Below, piece after piece: positions 723 to 37,378 of a DNA stretch of 40,281 nucleotides. The notes under the pieces are model-generated. The model had not been told where the DNA came from, did no database searches, and worked only from the letters and a program-made list of their open reading frames with translations. The stretch comes from a virus, in IMG/VR virus record IMGVR_UViG_3300026483_000010, positions 1 to 40,281 of that record; one strand, 5' to 3'. How positions within the stretch are numbered: the stretch's first letter is position 1; every line of letters starts with the position of its first letter. The position numbers and the translations under genes are program-made.

Positions 723-947
723 ATGGATATTAGAAAAATTTCTATAGGAGCAGACTATAAGTCTAGTGCTATGCATTATATAGCTGGACAGGAAGTTCTT
801 GGGGGAAATTATAAAATTCATTTAATTCAAAAAGAAGTAAACGTTAATTCTTACAAAATTTGGATTGAAAAATCTAATGAAGTTTTTTTGTGGAAAGAAT
901 TTAATTCTAATATTCCTATTTCAATCGAATATAATATAAATTTCTAA
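723..947 (+). CDS. Conserved hypothetical protein, 74 aa
   Basis: A short protein starting MDIRKISIGADYKSSAMHY and containing HLIQKE. It is compact and predicted mostly beta, and has no membrane segment. It starts 4 bp after the previous stop, and its own TAA shares an A with the next ATG (TAATG at 945-949), so translation is probably coupled to the GroES-like gene. I recall similar short proteins beside the terminase in Bacteroidota phages but know no function. The tight coupling makes it a real gene. Confidence 0.65.
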   Translation: MDIRKISIGADYKSSAMHYIAGQEVLGGNYKIHLIQKEVNVNSYKIWIEKSNEVFLWKEFNSNIPISIEYNINF

Positions 948-1510
948 TGAAGTCACCTTTTTATTTCATTGTAAAACCTTACAATGGAAGAAGGTATGAT
1001 AATGTAAAAAAGATAGGGGATGTGAACTTAATAATGAGTTCATCCAAAGAAGATCATACCGTTTCCAATAGGTTTGCAAAAGTTATTAGTACTCCAATTA
1101 ATTATACAGGAGAAATTATTCCAGGTGATATTTTACTAGTTCACCATAATGTTTTTAAATTTTATAATGATATAAAAGGTCGTCAAAAAAGCGGTAAAAG
1201 TTTTTTTAAAGACGATTTGTTTTTTATAGAAGAGGATCAGTTTTTTATGTTTAAGCATAATGATAAATGGAAATGTCATTCTAAATATGTAATGATAAAA
1301 CCAATATTAAAAAAAGATTCTTATATTAAAGGTTCTAATACTGAAGAACCATTAACTGGTATTATAAAATATATAAATTCTGAGCTATTAGAAAAAGGAT
1401 TAAAGGAGGGTGATACTATTTGTTTTCAGCCTGAAAGTGAATATCCTTTTATTGTAGAAGAAGAAAAGCTATATAGAATGTTTACCAACAATATAACTAT
1501 GGTTTTATAA
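947..1510 (+). CDS. GroES-like co-chaperonin (gp31/Cpn10 type)
   Basis: This encodes 187 aa. The first half has the pattern of viral GroES-like proteins: an entry strand (NRFAKVISTP), then GEIIPGDILLVHHNVFKFY, a polar insertion around residues 75-85 (KGRQKSGKSF) that could be the mobile loop or roof, then DDLFFIEEDQFFMFK. The second half repeats barrel strands (GLKEGDTICFQPESEYPF, then EEEKLYRMF). Known viral members such as T4 gp31 replace host GroES on GroEL so that the capsid protein folds. The position just upstream of terminase, portal and capsid fits that role. The alternative is an unrelated beta-barrel protein; assignment is by pattern only. Confidence 0.55.
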   Translation: MKSPFYFIVKPYNGRRYDNVKKIGDVNLIMSSSKEDHTVSNRFAKVISTPINYTGEIIPGDILLVHHNVFKFYNDIKGRQKSGKSFFKDDLFFIEEDQFFMFKHNDKWKCHSKYVMIKPILKKDSYIKGSNTEEPLTGIIKYINSELLEKGLKEGDTICFQPESEYPFIVEEEKLYRMFTNNITMVL

Positions 1511-9218: not shown

Positions 9219-9237
9219 GAATAACAATTTGTAATTT

Positions 9238-9264
9238 TTACCCTCGTTATAAAGACGGGGGTAA
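9238..9264 (+). terminator. Hairpin after the major capsid gene (possible attenuator)
   Basis: The sequence 9240-9246 (ACCCTCG) pairs with 9256-9262 (CGGGGGT) with one G-T wobble, and TT/AA at 9238-9239 and 9263-9264 extends the stem to 9 bp around a 9-nt loop. It lies 20 bp after the capsid stop codon. The downstream tract is AT-rich but lacks a clean T-run, so it may be a weak terminator or an mRNA 3'-end stabiliser that raises capsid transcript relative to distal genes. Confidence 0.55.
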
Positions 9265-9296: not shown

Positions 9297-10058
9297 ATGA
9301 AAAACACAAAAAAAATAGTTTTAGTTAATAAAACTTACAAATTAAAAGGAGATGTTGCTCCTTTAAGTTTAATGATACCAGCTAGAAATAGCAGACGATC
9401 ACCTTTAATGTATTTTGACGAAGACAAAGGAGTAAACAGAGCGCTTCGTTATGCAAGAAATCAAAAGAGTCCTTTCGAGGATGAACAAGATGGTAACGCC
9501 ATCCTAGAACCTATCGTATTTGAAGATGGGTTTTTATTTGTTCCTAAAACAAATCCAGTATTACAACAGTTCTTATCATTACACCCATCTAACGGACATT
9601 TATTTATGGAGGTAGACAAAGAGGTTGATGCTACTGCTGATGTTGACACCTTAGATATGGAGCTTGAAGCTCAAGTATCTGCTAAAGGATTAAGCTTAGA
9701 GCTTATGGAAACCATTGGTAGGGTTGTGATTGGATTAAATGTGGACAAGCTTAGTTCGGCAGAATTAAAAAGAGATATAAGGTTATTTGCAAAAAGATAC
9801 CCTCAAGATTTTTTAGAATCTCTTAATGATCCTTTATTAATTTTACAAAATAAATGTTCTCAATTTTTGTCTAACAATTTAATTATAATGAAAAATGAAA
9901 AAGATGTTTATTATAATTTAAAACAAAACAAGAAAAAACTACTAACTGTTCCTTATGGAGAAGATCCTTTATTTATATTGGCATCGTTCTTTCAAAGTGA
10001 TGAAGGGCAGGCAGTATTCACTTTATTAAGTAATAGATTAAAAAAACTAGACGAATAA
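9297..10058 (+). CDS. Conserved protein downstream of the capsid gene, unknown function
   Basis: This encodes 253 aa. The N-terminal half is beta-rich and starts with VLVNKTYKLKGDVAPLS, then MIPARNSRRSPLMYFDE and YARNQKSPFEDEQDG. The C-terminal half is helical, including a segment around 160-185 (LKRDIRLFAKRYPQDFLE) and a final helix. I recall proteins of this type directly after the capsid gene in flavobacterial phages but know no role. Soluble, no membrane segment. It ends shortly before a strong terminator, so it closes the packaging-capsid transcription unit. A head-completion or decoration role is possible but unproven. Confidence 0.65.
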   Translation: MKNTKKIVLVNKTYKLKGDVAPLSLMIPARNSRRSPLMYFDEDKGVNRALRYARNQKSPFEDEQDGNAILEPIVFEDGFLFVPKTNPVLQQFLSLHPSNGHLFMEVDKEVDATADVDTLDMELEAQVSAKGLSLELMETIGRVVIGLNVDKLSSAELKRDIRLFAKRYPQDFLESLNDPLLILQNKCSQFLSNNLIIMKNEKDVYYNLKQNKKKLLTVPYGEDPLFILASFFQSDEGQAVFTLLSNRLKKLDE

Positions 10059-32921: not shown

Positions 32922-33174
32922 AGGTTTCTCGGAGGTATTTGTAAACTTCAGGCAATTTGTCCATTGCTTTTTTCTGAGTTTTATATTCTATTTTTCCTAA
33001 ATGTTCTTTACTGTATAATGTAATACTTTTTTTAGCATCATAAAATTTATCTTTACCATTTGTGGATATACCTCCTTTTCTAATTGCTATTTTAAAGTAC
33101 ATTGTATTTATTGGCTTTACATAAACTTGCCAATCGTTATCAATACACCATTTAAAATCAGAACTCCAACTCAT
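32914..33174 (-). CDS. Hypothetical protein, 86 aa
   Basis: A basic protein with alternating strands and a C-terminal helix (MSWSSDFKWCIDNDWQVYVK start; KEHLGKIEYKTQKKAMDKL). It overlaps the primase-helicase stop by 17 bp and the acidic 88-aa gene by 8 bp. It is a basic protein beside an acidic one, so they might form a pair, but no family is known to me. Small beta-alpha proteins in this place could support primase or helicase loading. Confidence 0.5.
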   Translation of the reverse strand: MSWSSDFKWCIDNDWQVYVKPINTMYFKIAIRKGGISTNGKDKFYDAKKSITLYSKEHLGKIEYKTQKKAMDKLPEVYKYLRETYG

Positions 33175-35584
33175 CTTTAGGTTTTACTTTTTTGTTTTTA
33201 TCCGTGTATATTATCATCCACTTACCATTCATATCTCTGTCTTCCATTGGCTCTAGTCCTGTTGTAAAAATAGCAAAAGCTTTTAACCATTTATAAAACG
33301 CAGTCCTGGATATTGTCATCTTTGCTTTTGGTGCATAATCAGGATTGTCTTGAATGAATTCTAAATATAGTTCATTTTTATAAATTTTTTGATCAAATTT
33401 TAATGAATCGTGTTTAGCAATCCCATCAATCAAACCACACCATTCTATAAACTCGTGACAAGTTTCAGCTGATAGCTTTCTAATAGATAAGTTTTTGAAC
33501 TTAGATTTTAATAGTCCGTTTTTAAGATAGAACATTAAATTTTCTACCATATAATTATCAAATATACACCATTCTTCTTGAGACCATTCAGAGAATAAAA
33601 GTTTACCAAACTCTACCAATGGTGTAAAGTCTTTTGTATAAAATTGTTTAAACTCTAACTCCCATTTTCTTCTCTCAAATGAATTACCCTTACCTTTAAT
33701 TGCGTAGTTAGTTGTGATTGCAACCTTTGGAGATTTATTAAATGGTATCTTGATTGCATCTTTATTTTTCTTTTCCAATGTTAGTCCTTCCGTGACAACA
33801 CTAAATAGTCTTTCAAAATCAAAATGTTTTTTTACATCATCAAAACATAGTACTTGTGTATCAGCAGATACTAATTGATATGCAAATGATTTTTCAAAAT
33901 TAAAAGCTTTACCATCTATTACAACTAATTTTTTCATTTGGTTGATGGCATTCATAAACAAACCTTTACCTGTCCCTCCTTCAGGATTCTCAGATATAAC
34001 CTCATCATTTAAAATTACGGCAGGACAATATGAAAAATTCTTGTATGCGTGTAACAAGTAACCTATGGTACTTTCCATAGACCTTATAGTTAATTTGTCG
34101 CCTCCTGCAATATTACTAATAAATGTTTTGTAGTCGCATTCATACGTTTCACAAAGATCAAAGTCTCTATCTATTACCTGGTCTTTCCAAACATAACCAC
34201 CTAAATCTAAATAATCAATAGCAGTCTTGCTATCCTTTTGAACTTTTACTGCACAGTTTCTGTAATATAAGTAAGCAGTATTTTTATCATCTTCTATAAA
34301 ATAAACATCTACTGTTCCTAGTAAAGACAAAAACTCTTCTCTAAAAAACCTTGTCTTGTCTGCAAAGTAATTGTAAACAGACATATCATCTAATACCTCT
34401 AAATATCCCAAAACAAAATCTTTTATTTCCTCTTCATTTGTATGATCAATTAAGTTGTTAGTTACTCTTACAAATATAAAGTTCTTGCTACCCTCTGGAG
34501 CATACTTATAAAAACCATTGTCCTCCAGGAATTGTCTAAAAAGATAGTGTATAATATTTATTACACCTTTCTCATTCTTATTCCAAAATCTTTTATCGCT
34601 TTCATCTTCCTCGATTGTGTGAATCACAGAGTCAATAACCGCATCTTCAATATTTGATTCAGATAACTGAAGACGGATTTCTTTTTTTGATACTCCACGC
34701 TTGAGTTTCATTCTTACTTGGTTTACCTTATCCTCATCTTCATAGTATTTAGATCCAAAGTTTTGAGTATGCAGGTATGCAGAGTTTATTGTGGTCTTAA
34801 TTTCAGAGGCTGAGAAGTCACTTGATTCAAAAGATGACATAATGTATTCAGCTAAAGATTTATTGACTCCATAGTCGTTAAAAGCAGCCGCAAGTACATA
34901 AACGTTATTGTTTCTTTCGCCACTTTTTAATCCATACTTTTTGTTCCACCATTTCATAAGTATGTCTACAATTTTATTTTCGTCTGTGACTGGTATTGTA
35001 GGTCTTGCAGTATACTTATCAACGGGTTTAAATTCTTGCTCCTCTATTTTTTTCCAAGTCTGTGAGTTTACATTAAGGTGAAGCAGAGGGTCATATGATT
35101 CATAACATACCCTTGAAATATTCTTTGATGTTTTGTCAAAGTAATCTGATTTGAAATATTTTTCAAGAGATAAAAAAAATAATTTATGGTTGTCTGGTTC
35201 TTTTGGTATTCTAACCAATGCTTTTAAACCATTGCCACTAGGAGATACAAAGACAGAGTAGACATATCTATCCTTTGATAGTCTTTCCTTTTCAGAAATC
35301 ATATCTTTCTTTGTGTTGTAGCCATCAAAGTCCAGGCATATAAAACCACTATGCTCAAGTATTGAATCGTCTGCTCTCTTTTTAAATGTTCCCGAAAAAC
35401 AAATTGCAGGTAGATTCTTTTTGAGTTCTTGTCGTACTTTTTTATCCTTTTCTTTTCTTATTTGCTTTATAAGTTCTTTTGACTTACCATCTTTAATTCT
35501 ATCCAGGATAGAGTCTAAGTCTCTATAAAAAGGAGTTGAGGTGTCCTTGATATTTCTAAATATCGTTATTTTACTTTCTTCCAT
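33158..35584 (-). CDS. Primase-helicase: VirE/BT4734-like N-terminus plus SF3 helicase
   Basis: This encodes 808 aa. Residues about 55-150 have the Bacteroidota VirE/BT4734 pattern: LPAICFSGTFKKR, HSGFICLDFDGYN and VFVSPSGNGLKALVRIP. A helical segment near 200-260 (KSGERNNNVYVLAAAFNDYG) resembles a primase C-terminal domain. The C-terminal half is an SF3 helicase: Walker A PEGGTGKG with K540, Walker B LCFDDV with D582 and D583, then motif C VAITTNY and FERRKWELEF. It would prime and unwind phage DNA at forks. It starts 19 bp downstream (in its direction) of an AT palindrome, and follows a terminator, so it likely has its own promoter. Its stop overlaps the 86-aa gene by 17 bp. Confidence 0.88.
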   Translation of the reverse strand: MEESKITIFRNIKDTSTPFYRDLDSILDRIKDGKSKELIKQIRKEKDKKVRQELKKNLPAICFSGTFKKRADDSILEHSGFICLDFDGYNTKKDMISEKERLSKDRYVYSVFVSPSGNGLKALVRIPKEPDNHKLFFLSLEKYFKSDYFDKTSKNISRVCYESYDPLLHLNVNSQTWKKIEEQEFKPVDKYTARPTIPVTDENKIVDILMKWWNKKYGLKSGERNNNVYVLAAAFNDYGVNKSLAEYIMSSFESSDFSASEIKTTINSAYLHTQNFGSKYYEDEDKVNQVRMKLKRGVSKKEIRLQLSESNIEDAVIDSVIHTIEEDESDKRFWNKNEKGVINIIHYLFRQFLEDNGFYKYAPEGSKNFIFVRVTNNLIDHTNEEEIKDFVLGYLEVLDDMSVYNYFADKTRFFREEFLSLLGTVDVYFIEDDKNTAYLYYRNCAVKVQKDSKTAIDYLDLGGYVWKDQVIDRDFDLCETYECDYKTFISNIAGGDKLTIRSMESTIGYLLHAYKNFSYCPAVILNDEVISENPEGGTGKGLFMNAINQMKKLVVIDGKAFNFEKSFAYQLVSADTQVLCFDDVKKHFDFERLFSVVTEGLTLEKKNKDAIKIPFNKSPKVAITTNYAIKGKGNSFERRKWELEFKQFYTKDFTPLVEFGKLLFSEWSQEEWCIFDNYMVENLMFYLKNGLLKSKFKNLSIRKLSAETCHEFIEWCGLIDGIAKHDSLKFDQKIYKNELYLEFIQDNPDYAPKAKMTISRTAFYKWLKAFAIFTTGLEPMEDRDMNGKWMIIYTDKNKKVKPKDELEF

Positions 35585-35738: not shown

Positions 35739-36002
35739 TTAAAAAGGCAAGTCAGCAGTTTTTTCTTCTTCCTTTGCAGGTTGATCCTCTTGTTTCTTAG
35801 GTACGAACGTATCTAATTCAACATAAGGCTTTCCAGACTTTGCCGTAAGTACATTTAAATTTACCCAACCATTTTTATGATTAGCTTTTAGAAATGTAAT
35901 AGCTTCTTCAACTTTTACGCTGATGTTACCAATTACGAACTCTGGTGCGTTCTCTCTTCTTTTGAAAAGAAATCCGTCTGCAAAAATTTTGTCTTGTGAC
36001 AT
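35739..36002 (-). CDS. Probable single-stranded DNA-binding protein (SSB-like)
   Basis: This encodes 87 aa from ATG 36002; a longer frame reaching 36161 is open but would overlap the exonuclease gene in another frame, and the shorter start follows an intergenic leader. The product starts MSQDKIFADGFLFKRRENAP and has alternating strands with aromatic residues (GWVNLNVL, PYVELDTF), consistent with a small OB-like barrel. The last 20 residues are acidic and end TADLPF, the hallmark tip by which SSB proteins recruit partners. It follows annealase and exonuclease genes, as phage SSBs often do. The core fold is inferred; the tail is seen directly. A structured leader precedes it. Confidence 0.62.
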   Translation of the reverse strand: MSQDKIFADGFLFKRRENAPEFVIGNISVKVEEAITFLKANHKNGWVNLNVLTAKSGKPYVELDTFVPKKQEDQPAKEEEKTADLPF

Positions 36003-36023
36003 AATATAAAGTATTAATTTTGA

Positions 36024-36054
36024 GTGCTTAGTAGGAGAAGCACATCTGACTCCT
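36024..36054 (-). promoter_or_regulatory. Potential H-type pseudoknot in the SSB-like gene leader
   Basis: In minus-strand RNA sense, AGGAG (36054-36050) is followed by a 6-nt loop, GTGCTT (36043-36038), CTCCT (36037-36033), ACU and AAGCAC (36029-36024). GTGCTT pairs with AAGCAC (6 bp) and AGGAG pairs with the loop CTCCT (5 bp), giving a classic H-type pseudoknot with a 6-nt L1 and a 3-nt L3. An AU-rich, unpaired stretch then leads to the ATG at 36002. T4 gene 32 has the same layout for autogenous repression by its product. The function here is inference. Confidence 0.5.
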
Positions 36055-36057
36055 TTT

Positions 36058-36795
36058 TTATAAATCTTGTATTGTAATGTGTTGAGATATTTCCATCTCT
36101 GCATTATCTGTAAAGAAATTATTATAAACTTCAATCGCCTTTTGCACCTTTGCTCTACCACCTATTAAAAAATCCTCTGTTGGTGTAAAGATACCTAGTC
36201 TACCAGAAACCTTGCAAACTACATAAAATATTACAGGTTTACCGAATATCTGCTGATAAATATATGCTTGACTGTCGTAATTATAGTCACGAGAACTCCA
36301 CTTAAATTTATCTATGTTTGAGGTAGTTTTGATGTCAATAAGTATCTCTGGAGTTATAATATCTGCCTTACCCTTCCATTTTAAACCAAATAATTCTGTA
36401 ATTCCTGGTACTTCATATTTATTTAATGGATTAAATATATCAGAATGAAACCTAAAGTTTGATCTCACTTTATTTATTAAAAAATCTAAGTGGTCTTGCT
36501 CTTTTTTTAACAATAAAATCTTACCCTCTTCAGCTGAAGCTTCCTTGTATGCTTTTGTAGATCTTGTTGAGGAGTCTATAATTTTAAATAACTCCAGTTT
36601 TTCAGGCTCTAATATTGAAACGTGAAAATATCTTCCTGCAACCATTGGCACAGTTTCTTCCTTTCCTTGACCATACTTGTGTGGCTCTTTCAATAAAGTC
36701 CATATATCAGAGTTTGACATATATTGTTTACCAAACTTTCCATAGTATTCCTTATCGTCCTGGAGTTTTTCTAGTATCTCCTTTTTAGTTAGCAT
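36058..36795 (-). CDS. RecE-like PD-(D/E)XK exonuclease
   Basis: This encodes 245 aa. The nuclease core is clear: GRYFH near 54-58 (motif I His region), then KGKADIITPEILIDIKTT with D145 and D154-x-K156, and a helix with DSQAYIYQQIFG (Q176). This is the RecE/exonuclease VIII and Cas4-like type of PD-(D/E)XK protein, which degrades one strand of duplex ends to give 3' tails. It overlaps the annealase gene by 11 bp, the classic exonuclease-annealase pair of phage recombination. The leader of the SSB-like gene follows it. The family call is firm, the polarity of digestion is from family knowledge. Confidence 0.82.
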   Translation of the reverse strand: MLTKKEILEKLQDDKEYYGKFGKQYMSNSDIWTLLKEPHKYGQGKEETVPMVAGRYFHVSILEPEKLELFKIIDSSTRSTKAYKEASAEEGKILLLKKEQDHLDFLINKVRSNFRFHSDIFNPLNKYEVPGITELFGLKWKGKADIITPEILIDIKTTSNIDKFKWSSRDYNYDSQAYIYQQIFGKPVIFYVVCKVSGRLGIFTPTEDFLIGGRAKVQKAIEVYNNFFTDNAEMEISQHITIQDL

Positions 36796-37378
36796 AGTAA
36801 GAGTTTAATTCTTTCTTATTAGATGCAGGAATTGTAAATCTATCTTCAAGATTTTTTATTAATTGTGCAAACGGAACTGACTTGTTATTCTTTATATATG
36901 AAACACAGTCTGCCCAATTTTTATGAGTCTTCTTTAAAGATGGCTTTACACTTTTCTTTACAGGTGGTTTATCTTCAGAAACATCAACCAAGTCTTCTCC
37001 TGCCCATAAAGATAATCCTAATCCGTGCATTCCAATAGCTTTTACCATTGATCTCTGAATAGCTTTATTAACATCAAAAGATGTAACGTTTTCTACCTTT
37101 ATAGATCTGTTCTGATGATTCATAATTGGTAGGTAATCAATATGTTCTACCCCTCCAACAGTTACACCAACTTTTACATAAGCAGTATTTCCATCTGTAA
37201 AGTAGTTTAAACCCGTGTGGTCTGATTCATATACTTTTCTATTTGCATCTGGGTACTTGTCTTTTATAATCGCCCAAGCATATGCCCAAGACAAATAATC
37301 GAATCTTCCCTTTTTTTCAATTTTATCCTTAACATTAATAGATGCTAATGCTTTGAATGTAGTCGTAGTTTTTGTCAT
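36785..37378 (-). CDS. Single-strand annealing protein, Sak3 type (DUF1071)
   Basis: This encodes 197 aa. Family landmarks of DUF1071 are present in order: FDYLSWAYAWAIIKDKYPDA (about 26-45), YFTDGNTAYVKVGVTV, HIDYLPIMNHQNRSI, and TSFDVNKAIQRSMVKAIGMHGLGLSLWAGEDL (about 99-130). These proteins anneal complementary single strands in recombination-dependent replication. It is followed by the RecE-like exonuclease (11-bp overlap) and the SSB-like gene, giving a complete three-part recombinase set. Its start overlaps the upstream gene through ATGA. The C-terminal 55 residues are basic and variable. Confidence 0.87.
   Translation of the reverse strand: MTKTTTTFKALASINVKDKIEKKGRFDYLSWAYAWAIIKDKYPDANRKVYESDHTGLNYFTDGNTAYVKVGVTVGGVEHIDYLPIMNHQNRSIKVENVTSFDVNKAIQRSMVKAIGMHGLGLSLWAGEDLVDVSEDKPPVKKSVKPSLKKTHKNWADCVSYIKNNKSVPFAQLIKNLEDRFTIPASNKKELNSYYAN

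Follow-up and report, generated by a model that had tools for sequence, protein, structure and literature searches.

An H-type pseudoknot was identified in the leader of a gene for a protein resembling single-stranded DNA (ssDNA)-binding proteins (SSBs), within a viral stretch of 40,281 nt (IMG/VR record IMGVR_UViG_3300026483_000010, positions 1 to 40,281; hereafter the window). Comparison with related leaders showed that the predicted pseudoknot belongs to the sense mRNA and lies approximately 20 nt before the start codon, beside an AU-rich initiation region predicted to be unstructured. That the pairing is kept while the sequence changes among the phages suggests that the protein may shut off its own synthesis, as in phage T4. 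The leader is probably an autogenous translational operator that works on the principle of T4 gene 32 in an unrelated phage lineage.

The leader lies on the minus strand; the reverse complement of positions 36059-36000 reads AAAAAA GGAG TCAGAT GTGCTT CTCC T ACT AAGCAC TCAAAATTAATACTTTATATT ATG, in agreement with the motif and coordinates described in an earlier note on this DNA. The pairs GGAG/CTCC and GTGCTT/AAGCAC are interleaved in the register of an H-type pseudoknot at 36054-36024 (minus strand), the 3' end of which is 21 nt before the ATG (36002). Ordinary minimum free energy folding of the window leader gave only the stem-2 hairpin, the stability of which was not significant (z = -0.5), and the pseudoknot score exceeded that of shuffles with a p value of 0.033 (simple pseudoknot scan, one sequence). 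The single window sequence made a modest, suggestive case for a pseudoknot and was not proof of one. A search of Rfam with the window and 20 related loci returned no match except one tRNA, placing the leader in no known RNA family.

Nineteen distinct close leaders (clade A) were aligned almost without gaps. The ten base pairs gave 190 cells, every one of which was a standard pair, and four of the six pairs of stem 2 changed on both sides, giving 25 double-compensated cells, compared to 7.5 ± 1.9 in shuffles; none of 500 shuffles reached 25. When the structure was shifted by 1-3 columns only 36-55% of the cells paired. Compensatory changes in related phages were what the earlier note had staked its proposal on, and the loss of pairing that would speak against it did not occur. 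Stem 1 was invariant and was thus neither supported nor contradicted within clade A. Both pairings of the earlier note, of 5 and 6 bp, are present in the window; among the relatives they needed amendment at two points. The outer A-U pair of stem 1 was not conserved, most relatives having a stem 1 of 4 bp and a loop 3 of 4 nt, and an eleventh pair (G-C or G-U) extended stem 2 to seven pairs in 9 of the 19 leaders. Across clade A, stem 1 comprised 4-5 bp and loop 1 comprised 5-6 nt.

The whole viral contig collection was then scanned with the pattern GGAGTCAGN8CTCCNACT, which left the pairing of stem 2 unconstrained. The 57 stretches recovered included 36 that preceded the SSB-like gene and two on contigs that ended just past the element; all 38 had six of six stem-2 pairs, in nine different pairings, and many were on contigs already known from the protein search. 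The remaining 19 matches, in unrelated places, had 0-4 of the six pairs. We regard the predicted pseudoknot as well established, because the 19 leaders were fully paired and because the pattern test left stem 2 free.

More distant relatives did not have the clade A sequence; at the same location they carried other pseudoknots in which both stems were re-paired. A strong pseudoknot ending 14-26 nt before the ATG was present in 30 of 63 non-redundant leaders (not all independent, with about 13 belonging to clade A), compared to 6/344 leaders of other genes from the same loci and 24/2520 shuffles. At a stricter threshold the same scan gave 25/63, 0/344 and 10/2520, respectively. A second scan for forms with a long stem 1 was positive in 43 of 96 leaders, as against 14/541 for other genes and 21/768 shuffles; its loop limits miss clade A by construction, so that its positives came from other clades and its clade A count does not denote absence. 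Two pseudoknot-like control leaders before other genes (L015:470 and L055:2691) were not conserved in relatives and were rejected as background.

The clearest group was clade D, with 24 distinct elements in which loop 1 was a single A, stem 2 comprised 7 bp, no gap separated the stems, stem 1 was long, loop 3 ended in AGA, and the element ended 16-24 nt (mode 20) before the ATG. Stem 2 occurred in fifteen different pairings with double compensation at all seven pairs, and the stem-1 arms paired with their own partner at a mean of -16.9 kcal/mol, compared to -8.0 kcal/mol with partners from other phages. This form was found in 0/344 leaders of other genes and in 2/7050 shuffles. In clade E, stem 2 was of the GUUCC/GGAAC type and stem 1 was fully re-sequenced (own partner -15.9 kcal/mol, swapped -7.8 kcal/mol). 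The clade E pseudoknot overlapped a small upstream reading frame in most members, and coding could account for part of its conservation; in L056 and L198, however, the frame is missing and the pseudoknot is retained. In L044, L053, L073, L156, L206 and L209 a frame of approximately 45-69 amino acids (aa) (...TRAEK..II.AT..LEQ...) was observed directly upstream of the SSB-like ATG, with the pseudoknot in its 3' end. Recurrent small hairpins (GTGTCCTC..GAGGACAC) were also seen in clades D and E (L056, L063, L068, L149, L195 and others), approximately 60-100 nt before the SSB-like ATG and just upstream of the pseudoknot, and tRNA-like 3' ends lay ahead of the SSB-like gene in L145 and L150, with a tRNA in L212.

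By the author's own labelling, 82 of 122 distinct family proteins had a pseudoknot-type leader. The proposal that a phage with no relation to T4 carries such an element before a gene whose SSB-like product has an LPF tip was strongly supported, and more widely than the earlier note had envisaged. Five of the 82 (clade G, L055-like) were weak, with the element in coding sequence and a near relative, L218, having no pseudoknot. Taken across the clades, pairing, position and downstream gene were conserved; sequence was not.

The 87-aa product of the downstream gene (P0001, C-terminus ...KTADLPF) has an acidic tail that ends in ...DLPF, as in SSBs, and its tip residues P86 and F87 were at least 90% conserved over 97-120 sequences. 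The family consensus from more than 200 viral contigs was FADGF..NAPDFV.G..S.K..EA..FL...KNGWVNLN....G..Y.ELD....DLPF. The gene lies between those for an exonuclease and a primase, in the order Sak-exonuclease-SSB-primase-helicase, and in 168 of 188 relatives one or more of these four neighbours flanked it in that order. A search for PF00436 SSBs was positive in 10 control genomes and returned none from 14 related contigs of 52-63 kb, leaving the SSB-like protein as the sole SSB candidate found in these contigs; a search for Enc34-type SSBs (PF10991) was uninformative, since no control genome gave a match. An AF2 model (pLDDT 78) had a beta-beta-alpha-beta-beta arrangement with no PDB match, and a deeper alignment gave a slightly worse model. 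Gene order, the C-terminal tip and the absence of a PF00436 SSB, rather than homology or fold, make it likely that the 87-aa protein is the ssDNA-binding protein of the phage. When 84,980 bacterial and archaeal genomes were scanned, the family had a single match, L253, on an Aliivibrio metagenome-assembled genome contig (JAAGZR010000163.1) that is probably a phage contig binned with that genome.

When T4 gp32 exceeds the ssDNA present, it nucleates on a pseudoknot in the leader and extends across an AU-rich stretch, so that initiation is blocked (PMC535899, PMC3014915), and in RB69 the sequence of the gene 32 operator diverges fast with its function kept (PMC535899). On the same principle, the 87-aa protein, once it exceeded the available ssDNA, would dock on the leader pseudoknot, polymerise in the 3' direction across the AU-rich run and the AUG, and so block binding of the 30S subunit; SSB supply would thereby follow ssDNA supply. 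Because the element lies between the exonuclease and SSB genes within one gene cluster, such an operator could adjust SSB independently of its neighbours. A shape and position that are kept when the sequence is not, and only before a probable SSB gene, are what the gene 32 mechanism predicts.

The likeness to gene 32 of T4, T2 and RB69 lies in an H-type pseudoknot and, between it and the AUG of an SSB or probable SSB gene, an AU-rich stretch that is unstructured in T4 and predicted to be so here. The scan used here recovered the T4 element, 39 nt upstream of the ATG, with a loop 1 of 1 nt and a stem 2 of 7 bp that adjoins stem 1 without a gap, and clade D has the same loop 1, stem 2 and gapless plan, with a stem 1 of different length. 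The T4 operator overlaps an upstream frame (segG), as does the pseudoknot in most members of clade E. The systems differ in that no sequence similarity was seen, the clade A stem 1 and loop 1 have dimensions of their own, no Shine-Dalgarno sequence lies near the gene starts of the window, and repression by the product is established in T4, while the present element is known from sequence comparison. The leader would resemble the gene 32 operator in its working, common descent not being implied.

Among published pseudoknots near SSB genes, those of gene 32 and STAXI (Rfam RF01728) come closest, and neither covers this leader element. STAXI pseudoknots are likewise found close to genes whose products handle DNA, SSBs among them (PMC2864571); they differ in that two to three of them stand in tandem, UUCG tetraloops being frequent, and in that they occur in Enterobacteriales, whereas here there is one element before one gene family, and no match to the RF01728 covariance model was found in the window or 20 related loci. 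A pseudoknot is likewise part of the autogenous translational operator in the Escherichia coli rpsO (S15) leader (PMC3014915). Its product is a ribosomal protein, from a different gene class. The rpsO operator traps the ribosome instead of relying on nucleated coating. A literature search, with most subscription journals outside its reach, found no report of such a leader beyond T4-like phages.

Several observations weigh against a gene 32-like operator. The 87-aa protein had no SSB match in PHROGs, Pfam, NCBIfam, PDB sequence, PDB fold or BFVD, and no relation of it to gp32 was found by matches in Pfam, PHROG, NCBIfam or PDB sequence. No pseudoknot was detected in 40 of the 122 family members, including MW202828 (L081). 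The AU-rich run of the window is shorter than that of T4 (about 20 nt compared to 39 nt), has no UUAAA repeats and, although it extends to the ATG as the earlier note had described, is just mildly special, with 85% AU in the last 20 nt compared to 74% for other genes; AU-rich starts without a Shine-Dalgarno sequence are general in this phage.

Autogenous repression is our inference from the structure, and its main rival is recognition by another factor: the pseudoknot may be a cis-acting element for translational control or mRNA stability that is read by the ribosome, a host protein or a small molecule, or a self-acting timer or standby site. The pseudoknot immediately adjoins the ribosome-binding region on its upstream side, which fits such a role, and the invariant loop nucleotides of clade A (TCAG and ACT) would give any partner a basis for specific recognition. 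For a small-molecule aptamer one would expect a sequence-conserved core across clades, whereas only shape is kept here, and the association is limited to one gene family, with the clade D form absent from the other genes of the same loci. We consider recognition by another factor unlikely, if worth keeping in view.

It is highly improbable that only the stem-2 hairpin is functional and the stem-1 pairing incidental. The invariance of stem 1 in the clade of the window leaves it untried there, and ordinary folding gives the hairpin alone; however, stem 1 was wholly re-sequenced in clades D and E and still pairs in pseudoknot register around stem 2, a register that is also kept in clade B, where ACUAG/CUAGU has become CCUAG/CUAGG. 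An element acting as DNA, either as a single-strand structure or as a recombination or replication site, was considered by the describers of STAXI and would suit the neighbouring genes, all of which handle DNA. This explanation is scarcely credible here, since the distance to the start codon is fixed and the sense stem-1 arms paired better than the antisense arms in 24/24 elements of clade D and 14/14 of clade E. The weaker antisense folding in 24/24 indicates that the element is sense-strand RNA. Stem 1 also had 105 G.U pairs and only 2 A.C mismatches, a count biased by a scan that favours G.U, the comparison of arms being the fairer test. The chance that GGAG and ATGTGCTTCTCCTACTAA, both present in the window, constitute a translated minileader with a Shine-Dalgarno effect is next to negligible: the ATG of this upstream open reading frame is not conserved and is absent in many relatives (L007, L012, L013, L019, L023, L025 and others), and a Shine-Dalgarno-like sequence was found in 0/27 window gene leaders. 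An alternative GTG start at 36161, which would have made the element coding, was excluded, since relatives have in-frame stops at 6-96 nt before the ATG, and the start at 36002 stands.

Features of the leader and of the surrounding gene cluster in the window
Feature	Position	Strand	Remarks
Primase/helicase (BT4734-like N-terminal domain, PriCT_1, DUF5906)	33158..35584	-	downstream
SSB-like gene, 87 aa	35739..36002	-	more than 200 relatives in viral contigs
Start codon ATG, SSB-like gene	36000..36002	-	kept in relatives; upstream in-frame stops in relatives
AU-rich run to ATG, predicted single-stranded, 21 nt, contains TTAATAC	36003..36023	-	from sequence; 14-27 nt long in most clades
Stem 2, 3' strand AAGCAC	36024..36029	-	full pairing in 38/38 element-bearing pattern matches
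Loop 3 TACT	36030..36033	-	ACT invariant in clade A alignment
Stem 1, 3' strand CTCC (plus T at 36033 in the window)	36034..36037	-	invariant
Stem 2, 5' strand GTGCTT	36038..36043	-	compensatory changes in 4/6 pairs
Loop 1 TCAGAT	36044..36049	-	TCAG invariant in clade A alignment
Stem 1, 5' strand GGAG (plus A at 36054 in the window)	36050..36053	-	invariant in 19 distinct leaders
PD-(D/E)XK exonuclease (phrog_412, DUF3799)	36058..36795	-	upstream; stop codon 55 nt before SSB-like ATG
Sak single-strand annealing protein	36785..37378	-	same gene cluster

The lack of Shine-Dalgarno sequences in the window leaders, together with the BT4734-like primase, hints at a Bacteroidota host. Elsewhere in the window, a strong hairpin or pseudoknot-like inverted repeat (TTACCCTCG...CGGGGGTAA) was noted at 9228-9264 (plus strand), between two structural genes and before the gene at 9297; it is possibly a terminator. 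Positions 947-1510 (plus strand) matched phrog_13932, annotated as co-chaperonin GroES. In the related record MW202828, genes at other locations carry the annotations GroEL and chaperonin 10.

On balance we lean, if only slightly, towards the view that a lineage unrelated to T4, with its own SSB-like family that has no known relatives, independently evolved pseudoknot-nucleated autogenous repression, its relatives holding dozens of re-sequenced operators of the same shape, one group of them on the stem and loop plan of T4. A small unannotated protein family is also flagged as a probable new SSB. Natural variants in which the sequence has changed and the shape has stayed constant would make it directly testable how a protein that binds ssDNA with indifference to sequence recognises one mRNA. 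If the proposal is correct, this would be a second, apparently unrelated lineage with the arrangement, and a pseudoknot beside an AU-rich start may be a general solution by which an SSB senses its own excess.
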